Source: Deltaproteobacteria bacterium | GTDB taxonomy: Bacteria; Desulfobacterota; Desulfarculia; Desulfarculales; Desulfarculaceae | NCBI GenBank assembly: GCA_020444205.1 | Contig: JAHLLJ010000019.1 | Coordinates: 1 to 42,036, forward strand | Reading direction: 5' to 3' | DNA length: 42,036 bases | Shown: in pieces, positions 1,889-30,275 of the stretch | Position numbering within the stretch: the first letter of the stretch is position 1 | Layout of the letters: every line of letters begins with the position of its first letter | Made by a program: the position numbers and the translations under genes | The notes under the pieces: model-generated | The model's database searches: none | The model's input: only the letters and a program-made list of their open reading frames with translations | Told to the model about the DNA's origin: nothing

Positions 1889-2010
1889 CCGGCTTCGCCA
1901 GCCAACGGCATACTGCGTTGCCGGCTGCGCTCGGGCCTCGACGTAGGCTTGGCTACGCCTCCGGCCCTCGCTCACCGGACGCCTTGTCTGCCGCCGCCTG
2001 GCTGTGCCGG
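1889..2010 (+). repeat. Dispersed ERIC-like repeat, copy A
   Basis: This 122-bp intergenic element begins CCGGCTTCGCCAG 3 bp after the TAG stop of the tolC-like gene and ends CCTGGCTGTGCCGG. The two ends are imperfect inverted repeats of each other. The centre contains the arms GTAGGCTTGGCTAC at about 1939-1952, so the whole unit can form a long interrupted hairpin. Related units lie at 2674, 4198, 20633, 25326, 25604 and 30153. No ORF with protein-like character is inside. Confidence 0.85.
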
Positions 2011-2033
2011 GAGCAATTGTTTAAATGAGAAGC

Positions 2034-2612
2034 TTAATGCTTAGGTTCCGCAGGCGCGCTATAGGGATCGACTAAGTTGCCGCGGCTGTTGCTTTGCACT
2101 TTGGTTGGGCGAAGCGTGACCTGCTCACCAGGCTTCAGATTCAAGGCAAAGGTCTGGTCCACCAGCACGGTGGTGATGGGCCAGTAGGTCCACCCCTCGC
2201 GCACCCCCACGCTGGCGTGCACAATCAGGCGCAGGGTGCGCTTGCCCGGCGGAGCCAGGAACACCGTGTCGCGCACCAGCCGGGGGGTGCGGATCACCTT
2301 AAGCTCCTGGGGCGGGTCCGGCCGCAGGGGCACATTGCGCCCATCTTGGACCAAGTACAGGCCCCAATCCCAGCTGGTGTATTCGGTGGTGTCGTCGAAT
2401 TGATTGAACAGGCTGCGGTCTTCTTTTAGGTCCACCAACACCCGCACCCTGGCCGGATTTGGGCCGGGCTTGGCGGTGCCCGCCGTGGCGCAGGCCAGGG
2501 CGCCCAGGGCCAGCAGCAACAGCAGCCCGGCCGCCGCGCCCCGTTTTAGAGTGCGGCGCTGATACGCCCCAGGTTCCTTGCCGAGATTGCCCGCTATTGG
2601 CTCACGCCTCAT
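2034..2612 (-). CDS. Hypothetical lipoprotein, family with the gene at 16860
   Basis: I do not recognise a named family. From ATG 2612 the product has 192 residues, with a basic stretch (RRTLKRG), a hydrophobic core and a plausible lipobox ALGALAC, so it is probably a lipoprotein. Upstream in-frame ATGs exist, but the frame there runs back through a dispersed repeat (2674-2736), so the longer form is unlikely; the SD for 2612 is weak and the start is uncertain. The mature part shares ordered motifs with the lipoprotein at 16860-17336: PGPNPARVRV, a WDWGLYLV strand, LVRDTVFLAPPGK, and a final LVDQ...LKPGE segment. It is probably a small beta-rich envelope protein. It lies downstream of the serine-rich lipoprotein on the same strand, separated by repeat copy B. 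Confidence 0.6.
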   Translation of the reverse strand: MRREPIAGNLGKEPGAYQRRTLKRGAAAGLLLLLALGALACATAGTAKPGPNPARVRVLVDLKEDRSLFNQFDDTTEYTSWDWGLYLVQDGRNVPLRPDPPQELKVIRTPRLVRDTVFLAPPGKRTLRLIVHASVGVREGWTYWPITTVLVDQTFALNLKPGEQVTLRPTKVQSNSRGNLVDPYSAPAEPKH

Positions 2613-2673
2613 TGACCACGATACCTTCATCCAAGAAGCATCCGCACTCCTCGGCTTGGCCGACGCCTGCTCG

Positions 2674-2736
2674 CGGCACAGCCAGGGAGCGGAAGGCGAT
2701 GCCGCCAACGCAACAAGCCGCTTCCTGGCGAAGCCG
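2674..2736 (-). repeat. Dispersed ERIC-like repeat, internally deleted copy B
   Basis: This short copy keeps both termini. On the minus strand it starts CGGCTTCGCCAGGAAG one base after the TGA (2740-2738) of the neighbouring lipoprotein gene, and ends CCCTGGCTGTGCCG. The middle palindrome is missing, leaving about 63 bp. The flank at 2651-2670 also looks repeat-derived. Confidence 0.65.
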
Positions 2737-2737
2737 A

Positions 2738-3436
2738 TCAATAGAACCAGGGTCCCCAATCATCCATGGGATCCAGATAATCGATATCCATGCTGAAGCG
2801 GTGGACCTTTTCCACCCCGTTGCTCACGATGGGCATGAGCACGGTTAGCTGGTTGGGGTAGTCTCCCTGGGCGATCTGAGGATCGGTGAGCGGGGCCAAC
2901 AGCCATTGGCCGTCGCGCTTTAACTCCCGGGCCGGCTGCAAATCATCCTCAATGGTCTGGCCTGGGCCTACCCTGGTGGGAGTCAGCTTGCTCATCGGCG
3001 ACCAAAGCGGCACGCCCTGGTGGGCCACGTGGTATTTGTAGCCCTGGGTGTTCACATAATAAGTGTTGGCCCAGTCGATGGTAATGGGCCCGTTGGTTTC
3101 GTTTTTAAGCTTCATCTCAAAGCTGAAGGTGCGGTCGGTGTCGATGCGCAGCCGCACCTTGATGTTCCCACTGCTCACGTCGCCACCGCTACTGCCGGAA
3201 CTGCTGTCACTGCTGCCGCCGCTACTGCTGCCCCCACCGGCGCTGCTGGTGTAGCTCCATTGGCTTAGCCCGGTGCCGTAGGTGACCGCCGCCATGGGGA
3301 AGGTATCCAGGGCCATGGTGGACTCGTCGCGGTAATATTCCGCCGCGGATGGGCCTCCAGCGCAACCGTAAATGGTGGCCAAGAGGATGAAAAATAGCAG
3401 GGGCAGACCCAAACCGGCGACAGACGAAGTGCGCAT
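2738..3436 (-). CDS. Hypothetical Ser/Gly-linker lipoprotein
   Basis: No family recognised. ATG 3436 is chosen over the longer frame (to 3535) because it gives a clean lipoprotein signal, MRTSSVAGLGLPLLFFILLA then TIYGC, and has GGAG about 10 nt upstream. The product is 232 residues. Next come a short N-terminal segment and a low-complexity Ser/Gly linker (about residues 64-88: GGGSSSGGSSDSSSG and similar). After that is a beta-rich C-terminal domain beginning NIKVRLRIDTDRTFSFEMKL that resembles an intracellular/extracellular Ig-like fold (KNETNGPITIDW), ending in an aromatic-rich tail (DDWGPWFY). The architecture suggests a lipid-anchored domain on a flexible tether at an outer or inner membrane surface; the role is unknown. 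Confidence 0.6.
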   Translation of the reverse strand: MRTSSVAGLGLPLLFFILLATIYGCAGGPSAAEYYRDESTMALDTFPMAAVTYGTGLSQWSYTSSAGGGSSSGGSSDSSSGSSGGDVSSGNIKVRLRIDTDRTFSFEMKLKNETNGPITIDWANTYYVNTQGYKYHVAHQGVPLWSPMSKLTPTRVGPGQTIEDDLQPARELKRDGQWLLAPLTDPQIAQGDYPNQLTVLMPIVSNGVEKVHRFSMDIDYLDPMDDWGPWFY

Positions 3437-3531
3437 AAACCAATAGCTCCATAGAATATTTCCGGCACAACACCGGGTTATCCCTTTTAGCATGTTTTGG
3501 GGGCCGTGCCCATACGTCAGCAGACGCGAAA

Positions 3532-3569
3532 TCAAAAATAAGGGCCCATCCCCTTTGGGGGGCGGGCCC
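3532..3569 (-). terminator. Rho-independent terminator after hsp20
   Basis: On the minus strand, about 24 bp past the hsp20 stop, GGGCCCGCCCC pairs with GGGGATGGGCCC around a short loop, followed by TTATTTTTG. This is a classical intrinsic terminator and separates hsp20 from the lipoprotein genes downstream. Confidence 0.75.
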
Positions 3570-3592
3570 GGTAATAGTGGGCTGAGGAGTTG

Positions 3593-4039
3593 CTAGCCGG
3601 CCTTTACCTCGATGGTCTTGCTGGCGCTTTTGGCGGCCTTGGGAAGCTGCACCTCCAAAACGCCGTCCTTGTGGCTGGCCTTAAGCTTTTCCACGTCCAC
3701 TTCCTTGGGCAGACGTACGCTACGGCGAAAGCTGCCGAAGCGGCGCTCGATTACGTGGTAGTTGCCCTTGTCCTCTTCGCGCTCCTCGCGTTTCTCGCCG
3801 CTCAGGGTGAGCACGCCATCGTTGTACTCCACGTTGATCTCTTTGGGCTTGAGGCCCGGCACCTCGGCGCTTACCTCAAAGGCATCTTCGGTTTCCTTCA
3901 CATTGACCGCGGGCATGAATGCGCTTTGGGTGGTTTCGCCGGATTGGCCGGTGTCGAAGAAACGGCTGAAAATATCGTCAACCTCCCGGCGAAGGCGGTT
4001 GACTCCCCGAAACTGCGGGTAAGGAATCAGATAGGTCAT
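3593..4039 (-). CDS. Hsp20/alpha-crystallin small heat-shock protein
   Basis: This is a 148-residue ATP-independent holdase chaperone. After an N-terminal arm (about 1-40, with RREVDDIFSRFF) comes the alpha-crystallin domain (about 43-135). It shows the usual MPAVNVKETEDAFEVSAEVPG opening (cited in full only as family landmark) and the GVLTLSGEKREE strand, and ends with the hallmark GVLEVQLPK. The C-terminal tail SASKTIEV carries the I-x-V anchor used for oligomer assembly. A strong SD (AAAGGAGGGGG) sits just before ATG 4039. It stands alone, with an AT-rich upstream region and a terminator at 3532-3569, so it is probably a single-gene stress transcript. No CIRCE element (TTAGCACTC-N9-GAGTGCTAA) was seen upstream. 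Confidence 0.95.
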   Translation of the reverse strand: MTYLIPYPQFRGVNRLRREVDDIFSRFFDTGQSGETTQSAFMPAVNVKETEDAFEVSAEVPGLKPKEINVEYNDGVLTLSGEKREEREEDKGNYHVIERRFGSFRRSVRLPKEVDVEKLKASHKDGVLEVQLPKAAKSASKTIEVKAG

Positions 4040-4108
4040 CTTCCCCCTCCTTTGTGGGTTTGTTGATAAATAACAGCATGATATATACTGCCTATATTTA
4101 TAAAGTTA

Positions 4109-4140
4109 ATCCGGGGGCAAGCGGTTGCAAGCCCCCGGAT
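4109..4140. terminator. Strong GC hairpin between repeat array and hsp20
   Basis: ATCCGGGGGC (4109-4118) and GCCCCCGGAT (4131-4140) form a perfect 10-bp stem with a 12-nt loop. The + strand side is followed by CAAATTTTTT, as in an intrinsic terminator, although no + strand gene lies upstream. On the minus strand it follows cysK and the repeat array and is followed by a weaker TTAACTTTAT. Its likely role is to insulate hsp20 from cysEK read-through; the orientation makes this uncertain. Confidence 0.5.
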
Positions 4141-4197
4141 CAAATTTTTTAAGGCGATTTTTCAGCCCGAATATTTCCTGCGGGTGAAGCTGGCGAC

Positions 4198-4657
4198 GCA
4201 GCCATGCGAGGTCTGGCAAAACAACCGGCACAGCCAGACGCAGCAGGGCAAGGCGACCCAAAGCTTGGGCTGCCAAGGGTGTTTCAACGGGAGCCTCCAA
4301 GGCGGGTGAAGGCTCTCTCGTTTTCGACCCGCGTTGCCGCCAGCGGCACGTTGGGCGAACGAGGGCCGCAGGCGTAGTCTGCCTACGCCGAGGAGGCGAG
4401 CGCCGCCCGCAACGCAGCCATGCGGGGTCTGGCAAAACAACCGGCACAGCCAGACGCCGCAGGGCAAGGCGACCCAAGGCTTGGGCTGCCAAGGGTGTTT
4501 CAACGGGAGCCTCCAAGGCGGGTGAAGGCTCTCTCGTTTTCGACCCGCGTTGCCGCCAGCGGCACGTTGGGCGAACGAGGGCCGCAGGCGTAGTCTGCCT
4601 ACGCCGAGGAGGCGAGCGCCGCCCGCAACGCAGCCATGCGGGGTCTGGCGAAGCCGG
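4198..4657 (-). repeat. Tandem 216-bp variant of the dispersed repeat (copy C)
   Basis: Two near-identical 216-bp units (4198-4413, 4414-4629) and a partial third (4630-4657) lie directly after cysK. The landmarks GCAGCCATGCG at 4198, 4414 and 4630, and GGCGGGTGAAGG at 4301 and 4517, fix the period at 216; only a few mismatches separate the units. The element shares its termini (CCGGCACAGCCAG and TGGCGAAGCCGG on the + strand) and the core GCGTAGTCTGCCTACGC with the other copies, but carries about 90 extra bp. Reading from cysK, the CCGGCTTCGCCAG end starts 1 bp after its TGA. The long minus-strand frames here only reflect the duplicated repeat. Confidence 0.85.
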
Positions 4658-4658
4658 A

Positions 4659-5591
4659 TCAGTCCAGATACAGCTCCGTGGACTGGTAGCGCTCGCCGGT
4701 GCTGGGCAGCACGGTCACTATGGTCTTGCCCACGTTTTCCGGCCGTCTGGAGAGCTGCCAGGCGGCCCAGGCCGCCGCGCCGGAGCTTATGCCGCACAGC
4801 AGGCCCTCGTGGCGGGCCAGCAAACGGGCGGTGTCCATGGCCTGGTCGTTGGTCACGGTAATCACCTCGTCGATGATCTCGCGGCTCAGCACCTCGGGCA
4901 CAAAGCCCGCGCCGATACCCTGTATCTTGTGAGGTCCGGGCTTGCCGCCGCTCAGGACCGGGCTGTCCGCCGGCTCCACGGCCACGGCCTTGAGTTCGGG
5001 CTTTTGGCTCTTCAGGTACTCACCCGCCCCGGTGATAGTGCCCCCGGTGCCCACTCCGCACACCAAAATGTCCACCGCGCCGGCGGTGTCCTGCCAGATC
5101 TCGGGGCCGGTGGTGTTGCGGTGGATGGCCGGGTTGGCCGGGTTGGCGAACTGGTTGGGCATGAAGGCCTTGGGGCTCTCGGCCAGAATCTCCTGGGCCT
5201 TGTCGATGGCCCCCTTCATGCCCCCCGCCGCCGGGGTGAGCACCAGCTCGGCGCCCAGGTGCTTGAGCAGCTTGCGCCGCTCGAGGCTCATGGACTCGGG
5301 CATGGTCAAAAGCAGACGGTATTTTTTTACCGCGCAGACAAAGGCCAGGCCTATGCCGGTGTTGCCGCTGGTGGGCTCCACGATGAGGGTGTCTGAGTCT
5401 ATCTTGCCCTCTGCCTCGGCCGCGCCGATCATGGCCACCGCGATGCGGTCCTTTACCGAGCCCAGGGGGTTCTGATACTCCAGCTTGGCCACCACTGGGG
5501 CCACCATGCCCTCCAGGCAGTTTTCGCTCAGTAGCACCAGGGGGGTGCCTCCCACCACGCGGATGATGTCGGGGTTGATGCTGGTGGTCAT
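4659..5591 (-). CDS. cysK: Cysteine synthase A (O-acetylserine sulfhydrylase)
   Basis: The 310-residue PLP enzyme converts O-acetylserine plus sulfide to cysteine. The Schiff-base lysine is K47 in [11 protein letters not shown]. The phosphate- and substrate-binding loop TSGNTGI follows near residue 74, and the glycine-rich [15 protein letters not shown]-phosphate loop lies near 178. The C-terminal SSGAAAWAA contains the conserved Ser near the pyridine nitrogen. Length and motifs are typical of CysK rather than cystathionine beta-synthase, with no CBS domain. ATG 5591 overlaps the cysE stop (ATGA), so the two are translationally coupled and could form the cysteine synthase complex. In a sulfide-producing organism it would capture internal sulfide. 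Confidence 0.95.
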
Positions 5592-6562
5592 GCTTTTTCC
5601 TTTCCGGGCCGCCTGGAGCCCACGTATACCAGTTCAGGCTTTTCCGCGAACACCTTGGTGTCCGGGGGTACTGATTCGGTTAGCCACACATTGCCCCCTA
5701 TCACGCTGCGCGCCCCCACTACGGTTTGACCGCCCAGGATGGTGGCCCCGGAGTAGATGATCACGTTGTCCTCGATGGTGGGGTGGCGCTTGGCCCCCCT
5801 CAGGCTCTCCACCTCCTCCTTGGACAGGGACAGGGCTCCCAGGGTGACCCCCTGATACAGGCGCACGTTGTCGCCGATCTGAGTGGTTTCGCCCACAACC
5901 ACCCCGGTGCCGTGGTCGATGAAAAAGCTTTTGCCTATCTCGGCCCCGGGATGAATGTCTATGCCGGTGCGGGCATGGGCGTACTCGGTCATCATACGGG
6001 GCAAAATGGGCACGTCCAGGTGGCGCAGAAGATGGGCCAGGCGGTAAACGGTGACCGCGAACAGACCGGGATAGGAGAAGATGATCTCATCCACTCCGCC
6101 GCTGGCCGGGTCGCCCTCTTGGGCAGCCAGCACGTCCAAGGTGAGCATGCGGCGGATCTCCGGCAGGCCCCGCACGAACTCCAAGGCGCCGCGCTGGCCC
6201 CGTTCGCCGCATAGAGTGCAACTCAGGTCGTGGCGAAAGCAATCGTGGCGCACCGCCCAGGTTATCTGGTCGGCCATCAAGGCGTAGAGCTTGGTGAGCA
6301 CCATGCCCATGTGGTACTCCAGATTGACTTCCTCGATTTTATGGCCGTCGAAGTAGCCCGGAAACAGCGCCTTGCGGGACTTGGCCACTATTTCCACCAC
6401 CGCCTCCTGGCTGGGCAAGGGCACCGAGCTTATGTGTTCGAAACATTGCTTGGTGCCGCAGCTGGCCACCAGCTCGTTGACTACCGCGGGCAAGTGCTGG
6501 TGCAACTCCTGGGACAGCTCCTCTTCCAGCTTGCAACTATCCTCCTTGACAGGATCAGCCAT
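5588..6562 (-). CDS. cysE: Serine O-acetyltransferase (EpsC-type)
   Basis: This 324-residue protein makes O-acetylserine from serine and acetyl-CoA, the committed step of cysteine synthesis. The C-terminal half is the left-handed beta-helix hexapeptide-repeat domain, with [20 protein letters not shown] and [20 protein letters not shown] as the active-site coils (catalytic Asp/His pair in IDHGTG). An alpha-helical N-terminal domain of about 180 residues is longer than in E. coli CysE and resembles the EpsC/SrpH type. It has a cysteine cluster, C108, C115 and C118 ([15 protein letters not shown]), that might bind a metal or act as a redox site; this is inference. AGGA precedes ATG 6562 at a usable distance. 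It is first gene of a two-gene operon with cysK. Confidence 0.93.
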
Positions 6563-6630
6563 AGCCGCGTCCTTTCCTCTCCCCAGAGGGATTAGCAGGC
6601 GTTGTGAATTTTCAGGATAGCACAGGAGCC

Positions 6631-7455
6631 CTACTCGGAGGAGACACCCCGGATCAGGTACTTACGGGCCACGTTCTGCCAGAGCTTACACTCGGGCTCC
6701 AGACCGTGGATGGTGGGGCCGGCGGCCACCTGCCGCAAGAGCTGTTTGGCCTTGGCGTCGTAGCCTTCGTGGTGATACAGCTCGGCCAGGTACAGGTGGT
6801 TTAGCCAATAGTGGGGACCGCGGTCAATGGCCTGCTTGTAGTGCTCTTCGGCCTTGTCGTTGTCCCCGCCGATGAAAAAGGGCAGCTTGCTGTAGATGCG
6901 GCCCAATACCCGATCGGCTCCGCCGTGGCAGTAGGTGGGGTCCAGGGACAAGAGCAAGCGCATATTGGCCCTCGCTTGCTTGACCAGGCTCAGGGCCTCG
7001 GTAATGGGGGCCACGGTGGCCAGCATTCCCTGGCCCACGCCCAACCAATACACCGGTCCGGGGTCGTTGGGATGAGCCTTGCGGGCCTGTTGGGCCACCT
7101 CGATCAGCTCGCGGTAATAGGGCTCTGCCTTGGAGTCTTCGGCCTGGGCCCCTATCCACACCAGCAGTTCGCACAGCTTTAGGGAGCAGCCCAGGTCTTG
7201 CGGGGTGTAGGTGAGGATTTCGCGGTACGCCTCGGTGGCCCTGGCAGCCACATCCAGGTCGGCGCGCTGCTCATAAAAGGCCTGGGCCTGGGCGGCTAGC
7301 TGCACCGGCACATCCTGGGCCCGCGCCCAGGAACCACCGCCCGCCAGCAGGGCCACAACCATGGCCGCTACCATCCAGCGGACTGGTAAATCATGACTGG
7401 ATTTATGAATGCACCAACCCAAAACGGACCTCGCGAAGTTGGGACCGCGAATCAT
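6631..7455 (-). CDS. TatT-like TPR protein (TRAP transporter T-component family)
   Basis: The 274-residue protein has helical repeats with spacing and motifs of the TatT/T-component family (PF16811 type): [20 protein letters not shown] followed by a [12 protein letters not shown] turn and [20 protein letters not shown]. These proteins are periplasmic trimers associated with some TRAP-type transporters. A signal anchor lies at about residues 27-46 ([15 protein letters not shown], ending WARAQ). The true start could be the ATG at 7374, which would give a normal signal peptide; neither start has a clear SD. No TRAP permease or P-component is nearby, so a transport role is only by family. It is transcribed with the same polarity as the membrane protein upstream. 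Confidence 0.7.
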
Positions 7456-7500
7456 ACTTAAACTAAAATTTTACTCTCATGGTTGGGGGGGTCAAGCACT

Positions 7501-8154
7501 TTAAAACATGCCGCTCACCGACCAGGCGAAGGCGAACTGGCCGCCATAGTAAAGGGGCAGCCCCATCAGGCGGTTGTCCCAGCCCGGCTTTTTAAAACGG
7601 TCGCGGGCCACGCACAAGTCGCTGAAATAAAAAGCCAAGGCTCCGCCAAAAATGAGCCAGGCCGGCTGCCGGGGCAGAGCCAGGTTGAACACCGCCGCCT
7701 CGGCGGCCAAGAGCATCAGGGTAATAACCACCACATAGGCCAGCACCGGCGCCAGCATCTTGCCCAGGCTGGGGCGCAGCCACAAGAAGACCAGGCCACT
7801 CACCGCGCAGATGGCCAGGAAACCGGGGCGGAACCAGCCGCTGGGACTGGTGAGCCCGGCAAAGGCGATCACATAGGCTATGTGGCCCAGGAGAAAGGAC
7901 ACCAACCCGGCCTTGAAGGGAGCATCGCCCTTGAGGGCCAGGAAAACGTCGCCTATGAGCCCCAGGATCAGGCCAATGAGCACCAGGTAAAAATAAGAGG
8001 ACTGGGCATGGGGCAGCACCAGGGCGCTCAGAACGAACAGGGCCGACAGGGGAGCCTTGAAAGCCAACACCCGCCCGGGCCGCTGCTCGCGCTCGGCCCA
8101 GAGCAGGCCCGGCAAAAGCAGGACAGCGGGTATCAAAAGATAGGCTGCGGTCAT
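7501..8154 (-). CDS. YhhN/TMEM86-family membrane protein (lysoplasmalogenase-like)
   Basis: This 217-residue, almost entirely hydrophobic protein has about eight transmembrane segments. The conserved family residues are in LIGLILGLIGDVFLA (the G-D-x-x-L motif on helix 3) and LLGHIAYV, plus a C-terminal ALAFYFSDLCVARDRF. The D of GDVFL, the H of LLGH and the SD of FYFSDL match residues taken as catalytic in human TMEM86B lysoplasmalogenase. Bacterial members are mostly uncharacterised but may cleave vinyl-ether lysolipids. That would be sensible for an anaerobe with plasmalogens, though this is inference. The short gap to the TatT-like gene (about 45 bp) suggests co-transcription. Confidence 0.8.
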   Translation of the reverse strand: MTAAYLLIPAVLLLPGLLWAEREQRPGRVLAFKAPLSALFVLSALVLPHAQSSYFYLVLIGLILGLIGDVFLALKGDAPFKAGLVSFLLGHIAYVIAFAGLTSPSGWFRPGFLAICAVSGLVFLWLRPSLGKMLAPVLAYVVVITLMLLAAEAAVFNLALPRQPAWLIFGGALAFYFSDLCVARDRFKKPGWDNRLMGLPLYYGGQFAFAWSVSGMF

Positions 8155-8229
8155 AATCCCCCTCCCAGGTCACGGACGCTGGGCCAATGTAGCACGCCTG
8201 AGAGGGGATTGTAAGGCCGGGGCACGGCG

Positions 8230-8682
8230 TTAGTAGACCCGTTTTTTGAAGCCGTTGTTGTATTCCATGCACATGTGATACTTCTGGGACACCTCGCTCA
8301 GCTCATGCAGTAGGCGCTTTTTCTCCTCCGGGTCATGGCACTGTTGCAGGTGCTCTTTAATCTCTTCCATATCCCGTTTCAGGCGCACCTCTTCGGGTAG
8401 GAAACCGCTGCTTTTTAGCATGTGGTAGGCGGTGCGCAAATGCTCGGGGGTGTCTGCGTACGCACTGAGGTCAAAGGGTTGCCCCTGGCCGGGCAAGTTC
8501 TTGAACTGGCCCTCCATCTCAGCCTGTTTGATCTTGAGGTCGATCAAAGTTTCTCTGGTCACGGGGGGCTCGCGCCTTTGGCTGGGGTGGGTTTTGGCAT
8601 CGTATTGCGCCCTCACCTGGCGGCGATGCATCTCCCCCCCAAAGCGGGCGGCATTCAGCTTGTCCAGCTTGTCGTTTTGCAT
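8230..8682 (-). CDS. DUF1992 (DnaJC28 conserved-domain) protein
   Basis: The 150-residue product carries the DUF1992 signature: an IDLKIKQAEMEGQFKNLPG helix, the GQGQPFDLS loop, and then LRTAYHMLKSSGFLPEEVRL. The domain is shared with the eukaryotic J-protein DNAJC28 but here has no J domain. Its molecular role is unknown. ATG 8682 is chosen over ATG 8721 because GAGGGAAG lies upstream at a usable distance and homologues start near the NDKLDKLN segment. The C-terminal third is charged and probably helical (KRDMEEIKEHLQQ). It is followed after 75 bp by the YhhN gene. Confidence 0.8.
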   Translation of the reverse strand: MQNDKLDKLNAARFGGEMHRRQVRAQYDAKTHPSQRREPPVTRETLIDLKIKQAEMEGQFKNLPGQGQPFDLSAYADTPEHLRTAYHMLKSSGFLPEEVRLKRDMEEIKEHLQQCHDPEEKKRLLHELSEVSQKYHMCMEYNNGFKKRVY

Positions 8683-8853
8683 GATTCGCTTCCCTCGGGT
8701 CGCGGGAGATAGATTGTGCATATTTTCCCATATAAGCCCGACACTGACCAGGGAATTCGTCTAAAGCACAAGACAGCCGCTTTTGGCTGTTCGTCATATC
8801 CATAACCACCGACGCCGTAACGTATAATTGACCTAACTGTGGCCCGTTTACCC

Positions 8854-8894
8854 TACCAAATGGTATGCGCATACAATGCGCCTACATTTTGGTA
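8854..8894. repeat. Long imperfect palindrome (ACCAAAT family)
   Basis: Arms 8854-8872 (TACCAAATGGTATGCGCAT) and 8876-8894 (ATGCGCCTACATTTTGGTA) match at 16 of 19 positions around a 3-nt loop. The outer ends carry the same TACCAAA/TTTGGTA words as the palindrome at 9111-9151. It could be a regulatory-protein site or a cruciform. Confidence 0.6.
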
Positions 8895-9110
8895 GTCTCC
8901 TATTTTGTAGTCTTTCAACCCCGTCCAACGGCCAGGCAGCGGCACAATCCAGCAGCGTGGCGTTACGCCGCAGCTGGAGCTAATTTTAGTTAAAACATTG
9001 TTTTTATGTATTATTTTATTATATACCATCACGGCGCAGGGCTATGGGTCGCCGCCACACGCCGCGTGGCTTGCCTAGCGGCCGGGCTCCGCCATATTTT
9101 TAAAATACCC

Positions 9111-9151
9111 ACCAAATAGTAGAATAGCTCCAAATTAGCCTACTATTTGGT
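9111..9151. repeat. Perfect 11-bp inverted repeat (ACCAAATAGTA)
   Basis: ACCAAATAGTA (9111-9121) and TACTATTTGGT (9141-9151) are perfect inverted repeats separated by 19 bp. They lie about 100 bp upstream of the candidate sigma-54 promoter of amtB, the usual range for an enhancer-binding activator. The sequence does not match the NtrC consensus TGCACC-N5-GGTGCA. Confidence 0.6.
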
Positions 9152-9248
9152 ATCTTTTATTTTTACATTTTTGCAGTAATTTCAGCCCTTGCAAGCAATA
9201 TTGCCGTGTTGGCGGGCTCTTAGGCCGCATCGCCATTGCGAGTAAAAG

Positions 9249-9265: not shown

Positions 9266-9367
9266 TAAGTGCCCCCCGAGGAATAGTCGCGCCGGTTTGG
9301 GGCCGTGGTGGCCCGGGCCTGGGGAGTGGGCTCCCGGCATAACAATCTATCGTGTGAGGAGGGAATC

Positions 9368-20570: not shown

Positions 20571-20632
20571 GCCCGGGGTTGCCGGAGCAGCCGGGGGCAG
20601 CTATCGGCCACCGGGCCAAGCCGCTCCCCAAA

Positions 20633-20882
20633 CCGGCACAGCCAGGGGGCCGAGAGCAAGGCGTCCGGCGAGTGCAGGCCACAGGCGTATTTTTTCTACG
20701 CCGAGGCCTAAGCGATGCCGGCAACCCAGATATCGGCCACCTGGCGAACCCGTCCCCCAAACCGGCACAGCCAGGGGGCCGAGAGCAAGGCGTCCGGCGA
20801 GTGCAGGCCACAGGCGTATTTTTTATACGCCGAGGCCTAAGCGATGCCGGCAACACAGCTATCGGCCACCTGGCGAAGCCGG
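20633..20882 (-). repeat. Dispersed ERIC-like repeat, tandem copy D (129-bp period)
   Basis: Two units with a period of 129 bp (landmark AAACCGGCACAG at 20630 and 20759) lie between the kinase stop and the solute-binding gene. Each has CCGGCACAGCCAG at one end, the core GGCGTATTTTTT...TACGCC, and CTGGCGAA at the other end; the second unit ends CTGGCGAAGCCGG (20870-20882), 5 bp from the TGA of the solute-binding gene. The fragment at 20577-20632 is a third, partial copy. Confidence 0.85.
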
Positions 20883-20887
20883 CATGC

Positions 20888-21673
20888 TCAGGGCAGATAG
20901 CGCTCCTTAATTCTCTGCAGCTCTGATCCCGAGGTGAGAGCCAGACCCTTGTTGATGATGGACAGCAGCAGGGCATTGCCCTTTTTCACCGGCATGGCCA
21001 GGTCGTTGCGCTCCACCACCGCGTTGCCCTGTACCCAGGAAATCTTGTCTCCCAGCCCCAATCGGTTGCGCCAGTAGAGCATGACCGGGTCGTCCATGAC
21101 CGCGGCTTGAATGTGGCCCTGGCCCAAGGCCATCACGCAGGCCTTGTAGGAGTCAAAGAGCATAGGGGTGATGTGGTTCTTGAGCAGCACCGCCGCGCCG
21201 GAGTCGTTTTTGACCGCTCCCACCTTGGTGCCGGACAGGCTCTCCAGGCCGGAGATTCCCGGTGCCTGGCTGCCCACGAAAACGGCGGTGGTCACCGGAT
21301 AAAACGGTTCGCTGAAGTCCAGCACCTTGCGGCGAAAAGCCAGGGGGAACATGCCGGTGCTGGAGTCCAAGGCCCCGGAAACCAGGCTTTCCAGCTCCTT
21401 TTCGTCGCTCAAGGCTTCGAAGCGCACCTCAAAGTCCAGCTTTTCGGCCATGGCCCGCCAAAGGGCCGGGCAGATGCCCTCGGCCTTGCCGTCCGCCCCC
21501 ATAAAGGAAAAGGGGTGATAGGTGAGGTCCGCCCCCACCATCACCGGGCCGTGCTCTTTCAACCAGGCCCGCTCCTTGGAAGTGAGCGGGTCCTGCTGGT
21601 CCAGGCTGCCGCAGGCGGCGGCCAAAAAGGCCAGGGCCAACAAGAGCGCAAGCGACCGACCGGTCTTTTTCAT
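20888..21673 (-). CDS. Family 3 solute-binding lipoprotein
   Basis: The 261-residue product has a lipoprotein signal (SLALLLALAFLAAAC) and then a type 3 periplasmic binding domain. Landmarks are the first strand GPVMVGADLTYHPFSFMGADG, EGICPALWRAMAEKLDFEV, LDFSEPFYPVTTAVFVGSQ, and a conserved hinge near LGQGHIQAAVMDDP. The opening segment LTSKERAWLKEHGPV is typical of binding domains that also occur as sensors in two-component kinases. It may bind an amino acid or carboxylate. Its ATG overlaps the stop of the 2-oxoacid oxidoreductase beta gene (TGATG), so it is translated with a cytoplasmic redox enzyme rather than an ABC permease, which is unusual. Confidence 0.82.
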   Translation of the reverse strand: MKKTGRSLALLLALAFLAAACGSLDQQDPLTSKERAWLKEHGPVMVGADLTYHPFSFMGADGKAEGICPALWRAMAEKLDFEVRFEALSDEKELESLVSGALDSSTGMFPLAFRRKVLDFSEPFYPVTTAVFVGSQAPGISGLESLSGTKVGAVKNDSGAAVLLKNHITPMLFDSYKACVMALGQGHIQAAVMDDPVMLYWRNRLGLGDKISWVQGNAVVERNDLAMPVKKGNALLLSIINKGLALTSGSELQRIKERYLP

Positions 21674-24232: not shown

Positions 24233-24261
24233 CAGCTTGCCTTTCCGCAAAAGAAAACACC

Positions 24262-24282
24262 ACCCGCCCAAACGGGGCGGGT
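24262..24282 (-). promoter_or_regulatory. Leader hairpin upstream of the 2-oxoacid oxidoreductase operon
   Basis: ACCCGCCC and GGGCGGGT form a perfect 8-bp stem with a 5-nt loop, 30 bp before the ATG of the gamma-alpha gene. On that strand it is followed by GGTGTTTTCTTTT. If the promoter lies further upstream, in the 160-bp gap shared with the divergent propeller gene, this could be an attenuator or an RNA-stability stem. Confidence 0.4.
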
Positions 24283-24433
24283 CGCTGCTGGTTGCTGTTT
24301 ATATGGTAGCAAAGGGCGGGAGGCCACTCCAATAGCGGCGATGGGTTGGTTGCCGCGGGAGCGATTATGTGGGAATCTTCTAGCATGAGGCCCACGCCGG
24401 GCCGCAGTTAATACGCCCAGGAGGGTTAGTCCT

Positions 24434-25324
24434 ATGAAAAATCTATTGGCCGTTTTGTTGGCCCTCGCCCTGTTGGTTGGTTTCACCCCGGCCTTTGCCG
24501 CTTGGCAGGTGGTCTCCCAGAAAATCCTGCCCGGCTCGGGCCATCCCGAGTCGGTGGCTTATGATGCTCAGGGCCTGAACCTGTACATGAGCAACTTCGG
24601 TGAAGCCTTCAAGCCCACCCTTAAAGACGGCAAGGGCTTCATCAGCAAGATTGACCTGAAGGGTAAGGTCGTGGAGGCCAAGTTTTTACCGGGCCCGGGG
24701 GACAAGCTCAACAAACCCAAGGGCTTGTGGGTCGATAAGGGCCGCTTGTGGGCCGCGGACATAGACTCGGTTTGGTGCTTTGACCTAAAGAGCAAAAAGG
24801 GCCGGCGCTTGGCCCTGCCCCAAGCCAAGTTTGCCAACGACGTTGCCGTGGCTGATGGCAAGCTATACGTCAGCGACACCAGCGGCGGGCGCGTATACCT
24901 GGTGCAACCGGCTGATTTTCTTGAGGCCGAGCCCAAAGTACGGGTGATGATCAGCCCCACCGGCTTCCACCCCAACGGCCTGTGGCCCGCGCCGGGCGGC
25001 GGGGTAATCATGGCCGCCAAGAAGGACTTGGGCGGTCCCGGCGGGCTCTACCAGGCCCGCGACGTGGGGCAGATGACCCAGATACGCCCTGATCTCGGCA
25101 GGTTGGACGGGGTGGCCATGCTAAAGGACGGCTCCTACCTTTACACCGACTGGGCGGGGCATGGGTTGTTCCTCTTGAGCGGTGGCGGGGAGCCGGTGAA
25201 GCTGGCCGGCGGGTTCAAGGGCCCGGCCGACTTTGCCCTGGTGCCCCAGGGCAAGGGTTACCTGGTGGTGGTGCCGGACCTAGTCACCGGCGAGGTGCAT
25301 CTCATAGAAATAGCAGATAAGTAA
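24434..25324 (+). CDS. Exported SMP-30/NHL-like beta-propeller protein
   Basis: The 296-residue product has a signal peptide (MKNLLAVLLALALLVGF, cleavage near AFA-AWQ). The rest is repeated beta-sheet blades with an alternating aromatic-glycine pattern: HPESVAYDAQGLNLYMSNFG, then KPKGLWVDKGRLWAADID, FANDVAVADGKLYVSDTSGG, HPNGLWPAPGGGVIMA and LDGVAMLKDGSYLYTDW. This fits the SMP-30/gluconolactonase or NHL six-bladed propeller group. Such proteins bind ligands or hydrolyse lactones in the periplasm. The metal-site residues of gluconolactonase (Glu, Asn, Asp) are plausible in HPESVA, FANDVA and YVSDTS. GAGGGTTAGTCCT precedes the ATG. Divergent from the 2-oxoacid oxidoreductase operon; a dispersed repeat begins 1 bp after its stop. 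Confidence 0.7.
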   Translation: MKNLLAVLLALALLVGFTPAFAAWQVVSQKILPGSGHPESVAYDAQGLNLYMSNFGEAFKPTLKDGKGFISKIDLKGKVVEAKFLPGPGDKLNKPKGLWVDKGRLWAADIDSVWCFDLKSKKGRRLALPQAKFANDVAVADGKLYVSDTSGGRVYLVQPADFLEAEPKVRVMISPTGFHPNGLWPAPGGGVIMAAKKDLGGPGGLYQARDVGQMTQIRPDLGRLDGVAMLKDGSYLYTDWAGHGLFLLSGGGEPVKLAGGFKGPADFALVPQGKGYLVVVPDLVTGEVHLIEIADK

Positions 25325-25325
25325 G

Positions 25326-25478
25326 CCGGCTGCGCCAGGCGACCGATAACCGCATCGACGGCTTCGCCAGTCACCGGCATACGGCGTTGCTGGCCGCGCT
25401 TAGGCCTCGACGTAGCTTAGGCTACGCCTCCGGCCTTCGCTTGCCAGGCGCCTTGTCTGCCTGCGGCTGGCTATGCCG
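25326..25478 (+). repeat. Dispersed ERIC-like repeat, copy E1
   Basis: The element begins 1 bp after the TAA of the propeller gene with a degenerate CCGGCTGCGCCAGG. A second, better end (CGGCTTCGCCAG) lies at 25359, and it finishes CGGCTGGCTATGCCG at 25478. The central GTAGCTTAGGCTAC is a palindromic core. The two nested left ends suggest an internal duplication of about 33 bp. It faces copy E2 in opposite orientation, about 125 bp away. Confidence 0.8.
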
Positions 25479-25603
25479 ATTTTTAGTGCCAACCGGGTCC
25501 TGGATGTGGCTGCCAGTAATCGCCTAATCTGCTTCTTAGAAGCCTCTTTAGCGGCCCCAAAGCTTGGGTCGTTTTATCTTAGGGAGGCTAGAGAAACGGA
25601 TCT

Positions 25604-25758
25604 CCGGCACAGCCAGGTGGGCGAGAGCAAGGCGTCCGGCGAGCGCAGGTCGCAGGCGTATTTTTATATACGCCGAGGCCTAAGCGATGCCGGCAACGCA
25701 GCTATCGGCCGCCTGGCGAAGCCGGCAACGCAGTATGGCGGCGCCTGGCGAAGCCTGG
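25604..25758 (-). repeat. Dispersed ERIC-like repeat, copy E2
   Basis: On the minus strand this copy begins CAGGCTTCGCCAGG a base or two after the TAG of the hdrB-like gene. It has a second nested CCGGCTTCGCCAGG end at about 25712-25725 and ends CCTGGCTGTGCCGG at 25604. E1 and E2 are in inverted orientation, each belonging to the 3' end of its own gene. The intervening 25479-25603 is unique sequence without a supported gene. Confidence 0.8.
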
Positions 25759-25759
25759 C

Positions 25760-26632
25760 CTAATCTCGCCGCAGGAAGCTGATGAGATACTCGCCATTGG
25801 GCGTATTGCGGTCCAAAGCCACATCCTTGGCCGTTAGGCCCATGCTCAGGCCCAAAAGCTGGGGATAGAGCACCGGCCCCTCTATGAGCTCCCGCTGGGG
25901 AGGCGGCCCGGCTAGGGAGTAGGCCCATTCGGCCTGCATCTGGCTGTAGGCGCAGGCGATCACCAGGATGTCCGCCTTGGCCTCGCGGGCCTCGCTTAGC
26001 CGCCGCCGGATGGTGGCCAGGGCCAGATCCTCGTTGCGCTCGCGCACCGGTGCCCCGCAACAGCTCAGGCGACCGGCCCAAGGCACTGGCGTGGCTCCGG
26101 TAACCTCCACCAAATCGTCGATAAGGTGCAAATTGCTGGGGTCGTCGAAATGGGTGACCTCGCTGGGGCGCACCGCGTGGCAGCCGTAGAGGATGGCCGC
26201 CCGGAGCAGCTCATAGGGCCTTTTCACCCGGCTTTGCAGCTCGGTCATGCCCACGTCGTCGTGCATCACCTGCAGAATGTGGCGCACCTTGAGGGTGCCC
26301 TGGTAGTTCAGGCCCTCGGCCGCCAACTCGGCGTTGACTTCCTTGGTCAGCTCGGGGTTTTCGGCTAAAAACTTCTGGGCCCGCTTTAGCGCCCCGAAGC
26401 AGCACTTGCAGGGGGTGGTGATGTTCAGCCCTTGGGCCTCGGCCAAGGCCATGCCCCGGGCGGCGGAGAGCATGTAGGAGCGGAAATACAGGTGGCGCAT
26501 GGGGTAGCCGCAGCAGGGGAACTCCAGGTCCACCAGCTCCACCCCCAGCTCGCCCAGCACCCGGCGGGTGGCGGTTTCATAGTGGGGCACATAGTAGGGG
26601 ATCTTGCATCCCAAGAACAGAGCGTATTTCAT
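25760..26632 (-). CDS. HdrB-family heterodisulfide-reductase-like subunit
   Basis: The 290-residue protein has two CCG (PF02754) domains. The first contains FPCCGYP and CKCCFGALKRA; the second has GCHAV (about residue 150) and LSCCGAPVRERNE. This is the noncubane [4Fe-4S] site pattern of HdrB, which reduces or forms disulfides in heterodisulfide reductases and related enzymes. ATG 26632 overlaps the stop of the upstream cytochrome b/Fe-S gene (ATGA), so the two are translationally coupled and probably form a complex. The disulfide substrate in this non-methanogen is unknown; menaquinone-linked thiol/disulfide chemistry is a plausible inference. Confidence 0.88.
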   Translation of the reverse strand: MKYALFLGCKIPYYVPHYETATRRVLGELGVELVDLEFPCCGYPMRHLYFRSYMLSAARGMALAEAQGLNITTPCKCCFGALKRAQKFLAENPELTKEVNAELAAEGLNYQGTLKVRHILQVMHDDVGMTELQSRVKRPYELLRAAILYGCHAVRPSEVTHFDDPSNLHLIDDLVEVTGATPVPWAGRLSCCGAPVRERNEDLALATIRRRLSEAREAKADILVIACAYSQMQAEWAYSLAGPPPQRELIEGPVLYPQLLGLSMGLTAKDVALDRNTPNGEYLISFLRRD

Positions 26633-28293
26633 CAGCAACTCTCCCCTTGCCCCTGCCGGGCGGCGGCCAGGCTGCGTAGCTCATAGAGCACGTCGGCCAC
26701 CTTGACTCCCTGGGGGCAGGCCTCTTGGCAGCGGTAGCAGGTGAGGCAATACCAGGTCATGCGCGCGCCCAGGGCCTCGTCTGACAGGCCCAGGCCCAGG
26801 CTGTGCATGATCTGGTGGGGCAAAAGGTCCAACTCTTCCTTGGGGTTTTCATAGGAGAAGACCACCGGGCAGGAGTTGGAGCAGGTGGCGCAACGGTAGC
26901 AGTTGCGGAAGGTACCCGACTGCACCGAAAGGCCCAGCTCTTTTTGGAACTCACCGCTGCTCACCCTAAAGGGAGTTGCCTTGCGGCTGGAGCTGGCCGA
27001 CTCGCCCGCCTTATTGGCCACCGTACGGGTGGTGGGGCCAAAGCCGACCTCCTCCAGGTCGTCCTTCATGGCGAACCAAAGGTCTTGCAGGTTGATGCCC
27101 ACCGGGCACAAGCGGGTGCAGCGCAGGCAGCTGGTGCACATATAGGACCCTTGGCGCATCACCTTGAGCATCTCGCCGTAATCGGTCTTGCCCCTGGCCA
27201 GGCGGCCCAGGGCTATGAGCTTCTCGGAGGGCAATACGGTGAGGTTGGGCACGTGCTTTACCGCTTCAGCCACCGAGCAGTGCACCGAACAGGCTCCGCA
27301 ATGGGTGCACACGTCCAGCTCCAGGGCCCGCACCATGGCCTTGGCCGCCGGGTCCATCTCTTCCCGGGGCACGGCCACCCGGATCATGAGCAGCAGCGGC
27401 CCGGTGAAGATGTGCAAGAACTTGCTAAAGGGCAAAATGGCCAGCCCGGCAAAGGCGGCCAGAATGTGAATGTACCAAAGCCAGGCCACGGCCTGAATGT
27501 CGTCCAGCCATCCGGCCATGGGGGCCATGAGCCGCGACAAGGGCCACGAGGCAAAGGCCCACTGGGGCATGTCGTGGCAGTCCAGGCAGCTATCCTCGTG
27601 CAGCGCCATGCCTTGGTCCATGAGCTCGTCGCCCGGCGGAACCTCACCCTCGGGGAAGACCACGCCGTAATGCTCGCGCCACACCTGGCCCAGGGCGGCG
27701 CGGTCGTTGTCTTCCGAGAGCATGCCGTATTCTTCGATCATGGAATCAAAGGTGCGCACACTGATGATCTTGGCCCCTTCCAGGGCAAAGCCCGAGAGAA
27801 CCAGCAGGGCCAGGATGCCCAAGGCGGCCCTGTCGGCCCAGTGGGTGGTGCGCCGGAGGCCGGGCAGGCGCAAGCGCCGCCATATGGCCATCACCGCGCC
27901 CGCCAGGAGCATCACCCCAAACAGGTTGCGCAAGAATAACCAGGGGTTGAGGGTGGCGGTGAAGTTGGGGATGATCAGCGGGCCCAGGGCGTGCAGGAAT
28001 ATGAGCCCCATCATGCCCCAAAAAATGAGCATGTGAGCCGCCCAGGCCCAGCGGCTGTGGGTCAGGCTGCGGCGCTGGAACAGACCGTCCAAGACCAGAG
28101 CCGCCAGCATGGGCCCGGCCCGGCGGCTGCTCAGGGCTTGGCCCAGCCCCTTTAAGGAGGCGCTAAGTCTTTGGGCAGGGGTGTAGTTTCGCGATTCAGG
28201 CCCGATGGAGGTTTTCAGCCAGCGTCCCAGCTTGTAAGCCAGGCCCAAGGCCAACAGGGCCAGGGAGATATATAAGACCAGGTCAAAGAACAT
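26632..28293 (-). CDS. Membrane cytochrome b / c-haem / double-HdrC fusion
   Basis: The 553-residue protein starts at ATG 28293 (GGAGG 8 nt upstream; the frame extends to 28314 without an SD). Order: membrane helices of a NarI-like cytochrome b (about 1-300, with candidate haem b His 87, 101, 276 and 294), and inside it a hydrophilic loop (about 175-265) with one c-type haem motif, CLDCH (236-240). Two HdrC-like modules follow, each with two CxxCxxCxxxC clusters: C329/332/335/339 with C386/389/392/396, and C465/468/471/475 with C516/519/522/526. The c-haem loop should face the periplasm and the Fe-S half the cytoplasm. It would thus wire quinone and a periplasmic haem to the coupled HdrB-like subunit. 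The family is related to DsrMK/TmcBC-type complexes, but this combination is unusual. Confidence 0.85.
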   Translation of the reverse strand: MFFDLVLYISLALLALGLAYKLGRWLKTSIGPESRNYTPAQRLSASLKGLGQALSSRRAGPMLAALVLDGLFQRRSLTHSRWAWAAHMLIFWGMMGLIFLHALGPLIIPNFTATLNPWLFLRNLFGVMLLAGAVMAIWRRLRLPGLRRTTHWADRAALGILALLVLSGFALEGAKIISVRTFDSMIEEYGMLSEDNDRAALGQVWREHYGVVFPEGEVPPGDELMDQGMALHEDSCLDCHDMPQWAFASWPLSRLMAPMAGWLDDIQAVAWLWYIHILAAFAGLAILPFSKFLHIFTGPLLLMIRVAVPREEMDPAAKAMVRALELDVCTHCGACSVHCSVAEAVKHVPNLTVLPSEKLIALGRLARGKTDYGEMLKVMRQGSYMCTSCLRCTRLCPVGINLQDLWFAMKDDLEEVGFGPTTRTVANKAGESASSSRKATPFRVSSGEFQKELGLSVQSGTFRNCYRCATCSNSCPVVFSYENPKEELDLLPHQIMHSLGLGLSDEALGARMTWYCLTCYRCQEACPQGVKVADVLYELRSLAAARQGQGESC

Positions 28294-28605
28294 AGGGCGG
28301 TCCTCCGAATCCACGGAAATTTGCCGGTCAAGCCGCCCTTAAAACAGGCGTGCCCGCCGACGCTTCCCAGGCTTGGAGCCGTCCACCCTCAGGGCCGCGC
28401 CGCCTTATCTCCCCGGCGTATGGCCCGCTCTCCCAGTTCCCGGTCTGAGAAGCCTAAAGCCCACTCGGCCGATATGCTTTTACTATAGCATTTTTACCAT
28501 CGGCCAAAACAAGCAGTCGCCGGTTGACTACCGGCGACCTATGGTTCCAAATATAGACACGTAATGGGCTTTTTGCCACCATGGGAAAAAAGGAGGTTAA
28601 ATGAT
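28294..28605. other. Divergent intergenic region with two hairpins
   Basis: About 310 bp between the membrane Hdr pair and the DJ-1 gene. GGCCGAT (28467-28473) and ATCGGCC (28499-28505) enclose an inner ATGCT/AGCAT stem at 28474-28491. Further on, GTCGCCGGT (28516-28524) and ACCGGCGAC (28530-28538) form a perfect 9-bp stem with a 5-nt loop, just upstream of the DJ-1 SD (AGGAGG at about 28591). Neither has a clear terminator T-run; either could be an operator or leader element. No gene seen. Confidence 0.5.
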
Positions 28606-29124
28606 ATGCCCCTTTCAGGTAAGAGCATAGCGATTTTAACGGAAGATTTGTTCAATGAATTCGAGTTCATATACCCTTTCTACCGGCTCCAGGAAGCTGG
28701 GGCGGCGGTAACGGTGGTGGGCAGCGGCGGCGGGATGACCTATCGCGCCAAAAGCGGTTTGGCCATTGTAAGCGACAAGGGCAGCGGCGAGGTGAGTGCT
28801 GGGGATTTCGACGGCCTGGTGATTCCCGGCGGCTACGCCCCGGATCATATGCGCCGCCACAAGGCCACGGTGGATCTGGTCAGGGACATCTTCACCGCGG
28901 GCAAGCCGGTGGGCGCCATCTGCCACGCCGGGTGGATGTTGGCCTCGGCCGAGGTGCTCGAGGGCAAGCGCTGCACCAGCTTTTTCGCCATCAAGGACGA
29001 CCTGGTGCACGCCGGGGCCCTTTGGGAAGACGCCGAGGTGGTGCAGGACGGCAACCTGGTGACCAGCCGCACTCCGGACGATCTACCCGCCTTTATGAAG
29101 GCCTACATCGCCGCCTTTAACTAG
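28606..29124 (+). CDS. DJ-1/PfpI-family protein (class I glutamine amidotransferase-like)
   Basis: The 172-residue protein shows the DJ-1/PfpI fold: first strand KSIAILTEDLFNEFEF, LVIPGGYAPDHMRR, and the nucleophile elbow AICHAGWML with C106 and H107. This matches the PfpI-type Cys-His pair; the acidic partner may lie in FNEFEF. Members act as glyoxalase III/deglycase, chaperone or protease; none can be assigned from sequence. ATG 28606 is chosen because AAAGGAGG lies about 9 nt upstream; the in-frame ATG at 28564 lacks an SD. It precedes trmB closely on the same strand. Confidence 0.88.
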   Translation: MPLSGKSIAILTEDLFNEFEFIYPFYRLQEAGAAVTVVGSGGGMTYRAKSGLAIVSDKGSGEVSAGDFDGLVIPGGYAPDHMRRHKATVDLVRDIFTAGKPVGAICHAGWMLASAEVLEGKRCTSFFAIKDDLVHAGALWEDAEVVQDGNLVTSRTPDDLPAFMKAYIAAFN

Positions 29125-29166
29125 GTGGGCTGGGCGCGGGGGCCCGTCTCTGCTATTATCGCCGCC

Positions 29167-30099
29167 ATGACCGCGCCTTACTTGTCACTAAAGCCCCTGG
29201 TGCCCTGGCGGGAGCTTACCCGGCCCATTGCCTGGGACCAGATATTCGGGCGCCACGCGCCCCTGGAGCTGGAGATCGGCTGCGGCAACGGCGAGGTGCT
29301 GGCCCGCCGGGCCGGGGAGCGGCCCGGGGTCAACCTGGTGGGCCTGGACCTGGACTGGGTCTCGGCCCGGCGCACCCTCAGGCGCATCAACCTGGCTGGC
29401 CTGGACAACGCCAAGGTGGTGCAGGCCGAGGCGGCCCTGGGCCTGGAGCGGCTATTTACCCCCCAGAGCCTGGCCGGGGTATGGTGCCTGTTTCCCCGGC
29501 CCTGGCCCAGCCCCAAGGACGTGCGCCACCGTCTTTTCTCGGCCCGCTTTATGCGCCTGCTAAACAGCCGCCTGGCCCCGGAGGCATCCTGCCGCTTGGT
29601 CACCGACTACAAGCCTTTTGCCGACTGGGTGCGGGGCCAGGTCCCCGGCACGGGCCTGGAGGGGCAGTGGCGCGAGATACCGCCCACGGTGAAGAGCAAG
29701 TACGAGCGCAAGTGGCAGGACCAGGGGCAGCAGATATTCTATGAGCTGACCCTGGTCAAGCGCCAGCACATTGCCTGGCCCACCCCAGAGGAGCCCAAAT
29801 TGCATTACCCCCACTTTGACAAGCTCAACCCCGAGGCCCTGACCACCTGGGAGGATTGGGGCGAGATAAGCGTGCTGTGCAAGGATGTGATCCACGACCG
29901 CGAGGCCGAACGGGCGCTTTTGCGCATGGTGGTGCTGGAAGATGAGTTGGAGCAGGCCTTTTATTTGGAGATGCTTCCCCGGCCCGAAGGGGGCTTTCTG
30001 GTGCGCCCCGCCCCGGGCTGCGGGGTGCTGCCCAGCCTGGGGGTGCAGCGGGCCTTGGAGGTGGCGGCCCAACGTTTGGGCGCGGACAGCCCAACCTAA
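29167..30099 (+). CDS. trmB: tRNA (guanine-N7)-methyltransferase, TrmB type, with C-terminal extension
   Basis: The 310-residue protein begins at ATG 29167 (SD weak; the frame also opens at GTG 29125). The class I SAM fold has motif I ELEIGCGNGE, VGLDLDWVSA, VVQAEA, and the TrmB catalytic segment WCLFPRPWPSPKDVRHRLFS. The canonical form is F-x-DPWPK-x-x-H-x-KRRL; here the Asp of DPW is Arg, and the KRR run is degenerate. TDYKPFADWV follows. About 100 residues beyond the normal TrmB length form a second segment (LNPEALTTWEDWGEISVL to the C-terminus), as in some thermophile TrmB with tails. It probably modifies G46 of tRNA, but the changed motif leaves room for another target. Confidence 0.78.
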   Translation: MTAPYLSLKPLVPWRELTRPIAWDQIFGRHAPLELEIGCGNGEVLARRAGERPGVNLVGLDLDWVSARRTLRRINLAGLDNAKVVQAEAALGLERLFTPQSLAGVWCLFPRPWPSPKDVRHRLFSARFMRLLNSRLAPEASCRLVTDYKPFADWVRGQVPGTGLEGQWREIPPTVKSKYERKWQDQGQQIFYELTLVKRQHIAWPTPEEPKLHYPHFDKLNPEALTTWEDWGEISVLCKDVIHDREAERALLRMVVLEDELEQAFYLEMLPRPEGGFLVRPAPGCGVLPSLGVQRALEVAAQRLGADSPT

Positions 30100-30152
30100 T
30101 ATCCGGCAGACCCACCCCCAAAGGTCTACCTTCGCGGGGATCGACTGCATAC

Positions 30153-30275
30153 CCGGCACAGCCAGCGACCGGCAGACAAGGCGCCTGGCAAGCGCAGGCC
30201 GGAGGCGTAGTTTTAGCTACGTCGAGGCCTAAGCGAAGCCGGCAACACAGTATGCAGGTGGCTGGCGAAGCCGGC
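30153..30275 (-). repeat. Dispersed ERIC-like repeat, copy F
   Basis: On the minus strand the element starts GCCGGCTTCGCCAGCC directly after the TAA of truD, with no gap, and ends CTGGCTGTGCCGG at 30153. The centre is GTAGCTAAAACTACG (about 30207-30221). It is 123 bp long and separates the convergent trmB and truD genes. Confidence 0.85.

Follow-up and report, generated by a model that had tools for sequence, protein, structure and literature searches.

Repetitive extragenic palindromic (REP) elements, REP doublets forming hairpins (REPINs) and enterobacterial repetitive intergenic consensus (ERIC) sequences are the closest described systems to the hairpin repeat family reported here. The family was noticed in a window of 42,036 bp of Desulfarculaceae DNA (JAHLLJ010000019.1, which is contig C120 in full, from a draft assembly of 4.44 Mb at 82% completeness), initially from the letters of the window alone (the original prediction). 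REPs and REPINs are extragenic multicopy hairpins, with compensatory changes in REPINs (PMC3733652, PMC3116915). REP units measure 20-40 bp, GTAG- and CGTC-tagged kinds exist, and GTAG REPs are linked to REP-associated tyrosine transposases (RAYTs) (PMC3733652, PMC3116915). REPs are reported to lie closer than 20 bp to the 3' end of a gene, and REP ends to provide TAG stops (PMC3733652); in P. entomophila and S. wittichi most REPs lie within this distance of the 3' end of an open reading frame (ORF), and GTAG ends often give the TAG stop. In E. coli, REPs at most 15 nt from the stop stall ribosomes, as cited in PMC12306157. ERIC sequences are non-autonomous intergenic elements of ~127 bp with a long stem-loop, TA ends and target duplication (PMC2229807). 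A further family, 24 elements of G. metallireducens with the central palindrome GRCGTAGCGCTGCTACGCC and similar sequences in Desulfotalea, was termed short RNA elements in 2009 (PMC2700814).

The repeat in the window is a near-palindromic hairpin of ~122 bp, one end of which (the proximal end) meets the stop codon of a gene. We read it as a new, unusually well-ordered family of mobile non-coding DNA hairpins at gene ends, of a known kind. Like REPs and REPINs it is a multicopy extragenic hairpin with pairing kept through compensatory change. Unlike a REP, the element is 122 bp long and has one fixed end at the stop. No GTAG foot (nor GTGG or CGTC) was found at the hairpin base, and within the consensus GTAG is confined to the region around the tip of the hairpin. 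The search for a RAYT proposed in the original prediction gave no consistent result: the Y1 transposase domain PF01797 was found in the carrier genomes G002, G003, G005 and G007 and was undetected in five of the nine carriers (the genome of the window, G000, which is 82% complete, and G001, G004, G006 and G010); linkage to other transposase genes was not searched. Length, intergenic position, long stem-loop and lack of autonomy are shared with ERIC, unlike which the hairpin showed neither TA ends nor a TA target duplication (102 copies). By the features tested (GTAG foot, consistent RAYT, TA duplication) the element is thus a member of neither group, yet it works like them.

The Geobacter family is likewise intergenic and multicopy, and its palindrome GRCGTAGCGCTGCTACGCC matches the GACGTAGC...GCTACGCC centre of the present hairpin, as judged by eye against the legend in PMC2700814. 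Unlike the present repeat, the Geobacter sequences are described as RNA elements, for example in the 5' regions of some genes, and the stop adjacency, polarity and arm covariation found here are not mentioned for them in the available part of that paper. The open-licence literature was searched, by titles and abstract starts, for the family in Desulfarculaceae, for its central sequence and for repeats or miniature inverted-repeat transposable elements (MITEs) at stop codons, and no other paper describing the present family was found.

Position of the repeat at gene ends

Repeat finding in the window recovered the family at the places named in the original prediction, and CTGGCGAAGCCGG with up to two mismatches occurred 16 times (3.55 expected). 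Related elements were indeed present at all seven predicted gene ends, with the proximal end 0-5 bp past the stop in each (Table 1). The whole genome and its relatives were then searched, as had been proposed, with a covariance model built from 20 copies. When 150 of 3,002 candidates were scored, at least 131 model matches were obtained in the own genome. The single-contig relative G006 gave at least 93 matches at no fewer than 90 places; three reverse-strand matches duplicate places already counted. Genes were called with a home-made codon-usage script, not a standard caller. In the own genome 153 hits were placed. Of these, 109 stand alone, and the other 44 have one end or both ends of a larger element close by. 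None of the 153 was contained in a called gene, in agreement with the intergenic position claimed for the copies of the window.

Stop adjacency was analyzed for those clusters that have a called gene on both sides; others were dropped. For comparison, each stand-alone cluster was placed randomly, in either orientation, inside its own intergenic gap (20,000 simulations). In the own genome the proximal end was found at most 15 bp past a same-strand stop in 51 of 71 clusters (8.8 expected, simulation maximum 22) and within 5 bp in 36 (3.7 expected), while the distal end lay within 15 bp of a stop in only two. G006 behaved similarly (51 of 73 clusters, 8.2 expected; distal end 1), as did a set of named relatives (10 of 17 clusters, 2.4 expected; distal end 0), whose loci partly overlap G001, G004, G005 and G010. 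The fixed distance and polarity to the stop claimed for the window therefore hold genome-wide, with a sharp excess close to stops in three data sets; copies were neither indifferent to distance and orientation nor mostly intragenic. Still, 20 of the 71 own clusters miss the 15-bp rule. Reverse orientation at tandem-gene sites occurred in 5/26 own, 6/24 G006 and 3/8 named cases, and stop distances near 121-145 bp belong largely to the second unit of a tandem array. The CTGGCGAAGCCGG excess and the random-placement null led us to reject chance or an artefact of reading. Within Desulfarculaceae the stop-codon rule is firmly established.

Convergent gene pairs host most clusters (45/71 own and 48/73 in G006) compared with 67 of 630 G006 gene pairs overall, a background taken from sampled stretches of which 14 of 54 were dropped for low coding content. 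All three stop codons are used. There is some preference for TAG, which makes up 36 of the 57 adjacent stops versus 124 of 270 in other genes (p 0.02, the latter count by subtraction), and TAA and TGA account for 13 and 8 of the 57. Apart from the stop codon, no flank motif or DNA target motif was found. In 66 stop-adjacent copies a T-tract after the distal end was absent: T runs of at least four were seen in 6% of the first 12-nt windows past this end and in 3-9% of later ones. An intrinsic terminator, which would need a T-tract behind a GC-rich hairpin, was therefore rejected. Some copies carry a second short repeat (TTGTCGTTGCGAGGAGC-like) at the distal end (flanks of loci L125, L137 and L168).

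Hairpin structure and occurrence in relatives

The hairpin consists of two near-complementary arms and a conserved inner core, with ends of the type CCGGC/GCGGC...GCCGG/GCCGC. In 20 copies, changes on both sides preserve pairing at 11 of 35 pairs. Wider covariation was observed in 126 aligned rows, where single pairs occurred as GC 85/CG 20, as CG 56/TA 26/AT 19 or as GC 72/AT 45. Even the outermost pair was complementary in 88 of 102 copies, although it was C-G in 53 and G-C in 32. No target duplication was apparent, as mirrored flank positions of 102 copies had no excess identity (one isolated z of 3.6 among 64 position pairs). Integron attC sites are marked by GTT/AAC in their outer core boxes and by linkage to an integron integrase. 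The outer ends of the 102 copies here are CGGC...GCCG, these copies having been selected by those ends.

Deviations at paired positions were almost evenly divided between G-T (153) and A-C (140) in the 126 rows; without the two G-T-richest pairs the counts were 108 and 139 (p 0.056). The alignment was fitted to the model, and any resulting bias would favour G-U. Since both kinds are equally frequent, copies decay alike on both strands, and no RNA-level constraint on single copies was seen in these deviations. A selected RNA should favour G-U; we therefore infer that structure matters during the spread of the family, while single copies decay. Neither in the window nor at 14 other loci did a curated Rfam model match DNA overlapping an element.

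Mobility, put forward in the original prediction as one explanation, is supported by copy number, by tandem arrays and by presence or absence of the hairpin at matching sites in relatives. Behind truD the own genome carries the element. The site is empty in G001, G002, G004, G005 and G007, where the stop codons of truD and of the gene converging on it overlap or come very close; in G006 the site holds other DNA, without element. In the own genome the element lies between the two genes together with ~65 bp of additional DNA next to its distal end (30088-30152). This additional stretch is absent from the five relatives, and the methyltransferase gene beside it is three codons longer than in G005. 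Conversely, the site behind gene 29124 is filled in G004 and G005 and empty in the own genome, G006 and G002.

An exact-piece search returned 63 stretches, which come from records titled Desulfarculaceae, Desulfarculus or Desulfocarbo, except for one metagenome-assembled genome titled just 'Proteobacteria'; the cultured Desulfocarbo indianensis is among the carriers. Nine of 40 genomes searched are carriers, namely eight of the own genus and one of another genus in the family; a second member of that other genus (71% complete) had no element. Plasmid and phage records gave no BLAST match to one copy. In a scan of 297 genomes of the phylum, in which 12 candidates were scored in each so that copy counts are minima, at least 12 genomes matched. 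Seven of these belong to five other families (E 5e-9 to 5e-7), with multiple matches in five of these seven genomes. The distant copies have in common the inner core CTGCGTTGC ... GACGTA-loop-TACGCC ... CGCCTTG, with variants. Their outer arms differ from those of Desulfarculaceae yet self-pair: each of the five outermost pairs is of Watson-Crick type in 13-14 of the 14 copies aligned, three of which are from the window. Two different arm families coexist in one genome (G131, L393-L396), pointing to arm changes that are independent of the core. Only 3 of 18 distant loci lay within 15 bp of a same-strand stop (one locus had no gene calls, and the gene caller was trained on very little sequence for these loci), so the stop rule is established for Desulfarculaceae only.

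That other families of the phylum have a similar inner core, already glimpsed in the Geobacter 'short RNA elements', suggests a single superfamily that has been overlooked. A stronger proposal, to which we give little credence at present, would be a phylum-wide superfamily with a conserved recognition core and exchangeable self-complementary arms, moved by a non-RAYT enzyme that inserts the fixed end behind stops in a replication-strand-dependent manner.

Possible origins of the stop-codon rule

We consider it quite probable that the family consists of non-autonomous mobile DNA hairpins in Desulfarculaceae, REP/REPIN- and ERIC-like in their working. Copies would spread in the form of folded hairpins; an enzyme provided in trans would recognise the conserved inner core, and insertion would leave no target duplication. 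The outer arms would be free to vary provided that pairing stays. Copies would be retained chiefly where transcription units end, in particular between convergent genes, with the proximal end meeting the stop, and some may have been picked up by an unrelated TA-duplicating MITE, inside which they would travel. Several observations weigh against this explanation. No mobilising enzyme was identified, the carriers without detected Y1 domain including the single-contig G006, and no transposition was observed. Because no other motif was found, insertion alone fails to explain the preference for all three stops. In G004 and G005 the element behind gene 29124 is reversed, its proximal end pointing away from the stop, and the truD insertion is not clean, given the extra DNA beside the element. 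At the TolC-type site an apparent decayed end is kept in G006, with none in G005; some 'empty' sites may therefore be losses. With one fixed end at the stop codon, the family is a clean case that lends itself to counting, in genomes in which the usual enzyme of such repeats often goes undetected, and finding the mover of the hairpin would test how REP- and ERIC-like repeats spread.

Selection could instead keep the position if the hairpin were a functional element of the 3' untranslated region that protects, matures or ends mRNA, or separates convergent transcripts. Position, single polarity and the strong enrichment at convergent pairs are what such an element would show, and the ribosome stalling at E. 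coli REPs (PMC12306157) is a precedent. The balance of G-T and A-C deviations, the lack of a T-tract past the distal end and the absence of the hairpin at matching sites in relatives all argue in the other direction. We regard this explanation as unlikely; the mRNA-stability or RNase III element of the original prediction gained no support. Orientation was also compared with the direction of replication. In G006, where dnaA lies at base 317, 78 of 90 stand-alone copies (61 of 73 clusters) are oriented with the fork, versus 348 of 748 called genes. At convergent pairs, which offer both strands, 40 of 48 elements run with the fork. Replication-coupled insertion into the single-stranded lagging-strand template would yield such a single orientation per replichore and would fit the lack of target duplication. 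Elements of other genomes whose sites map close to one of G006 follow the fork as well (34/44), whereas independent sites away from G006 elements do so in 16 of 27 cases (p 0.24). Convergent sites of other genomes gave 24/37 (p 0.10), 17/29 with both flanks mapped and 8/14 when not near a G006 element. Furthermore, same-contig pairs in the own genome were concordant in 16 and discordant in 17 cases, heterogeneity of orientation among G007 contigs was not significant (p 0.12), and MITE-borne copies share the lean (6/7 in G006). The replichore polarity of G006 is strong and unconfirmed on independent data, and coupling to replication is in our view a doubtful explanation, if somewhat less so than a function in the mRNA. 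In the same genome 47 of the 90 stand-alone copies lie within 0.6 Mb of dnaA, a crowding not confirmed on independent sites elsewhere. G006 also has 24 ORFs of 263-268 aa with weak DnaA-family matches, which are probably IS21 IstB-type ATPases.

Some copies sit inside a larger element of ~260 bp with ends TAGCCCGNATATTTCATG, which is a separate, unrelated TA-duplicating MITE that carries the hairpin. Its ends were matched 59 times in the own genome, and the reversed pattern not once; its TA duplication was seen at two empty sites in relatives. As an internal control, MITE-borne cores had no stop adjacency of their own (4/36 versus 2.3 expected). A TAG in the MITE end, 27 bp ahead of the core, can serve as a stop. 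Stand-alone copies might thus be worn-down MITEs, in which loss of the arm left the core near the stop. In line with this, 22 own MITE-linked copies have an upstream stop, which in 8 of them lies at exactly 27 bp, and TAG is the favoured adjacent stop. Yet both ends of the core are sharp and complementary, TAA and TGA are also used, and cores within MITEs point in either direction. By eye, no MITE end was present in the 45-nt flanks of copies from distant families. We judge a derivation from worn-down MITEs to be very improbable. An autonomous MITE partner was also considered: the sole pair of terminal inverted repeats more than 420 bp apart among the loci examined (1,300 bp, L063) turned out to be two MITEs around a superoxide-dismutase-like gene, and this candidate was rejected. 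Both of these MITE copies (L063 400-1780; gene named by eye) bear the hairpin.

Copies in the window

Among the seven genes, Pfam supports an outer-membrane efflux protein, a pyridoxal phosphate (PLP) enzyme, SBP_bac_3, an NHL repeat, a CCG domain and TruD; the gene ending at 2738 had no Pfam match at E 1e-4. The seven predicted sites stood, and some details of the elements were revised. One site has a shortened copy and two have tandem arrays. At the NHL-repeat (propeller) gene the element is present, the stretch directly behind the stop being a mere remnant and the full copy following it.

Table 1. Hairpin copies and associated features in the window, with the distance of the proximal end from the stop codon
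Feature	Coordinates	Strand	bp past stop	Gene, stop and context
Full stand-alone element, gene-first orientation	1889..2010	+	3	Outer-membrane efflux (TolC-type) gene, TAG (1883-1885)
Shortened copy	2674..2737	-	0	Uncharacterised gene, directly after TGA (2738-2740)
Degenerate MITE end	4163-4180			Beside the tandem array 4180-4657
Tandem array, 216-bp period, diverged copies	4180..4657	-	1	PLP-enzyme (CysK-type) gene, TGA (4659-4661)
Tandem array, 129-bp period (full copies 20633-20753 and 20762-20882, plus one partial)	20598..20882	-	5	Solute-binding protein gene, TGA (20888-20890)
Remnant of proximal end	25326..25358	+	1	NHL-repeat gene, TAA ending at 25324
Full element	25359..25478	+		Behind remnant 25326..25358
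Full element	25604..25725	-		Convergent CCG-domain (HdrB-type) gene
Partial proximal end	25726..25757	-	2	Between full element 25604..25725 and TAG (25760-25762)
Full element	30153..30274	-	1	truD, TAA (30276-30278)

In the array at 4180-4657 the period exceeds one element, and extra GC-rich sequence separates the units.

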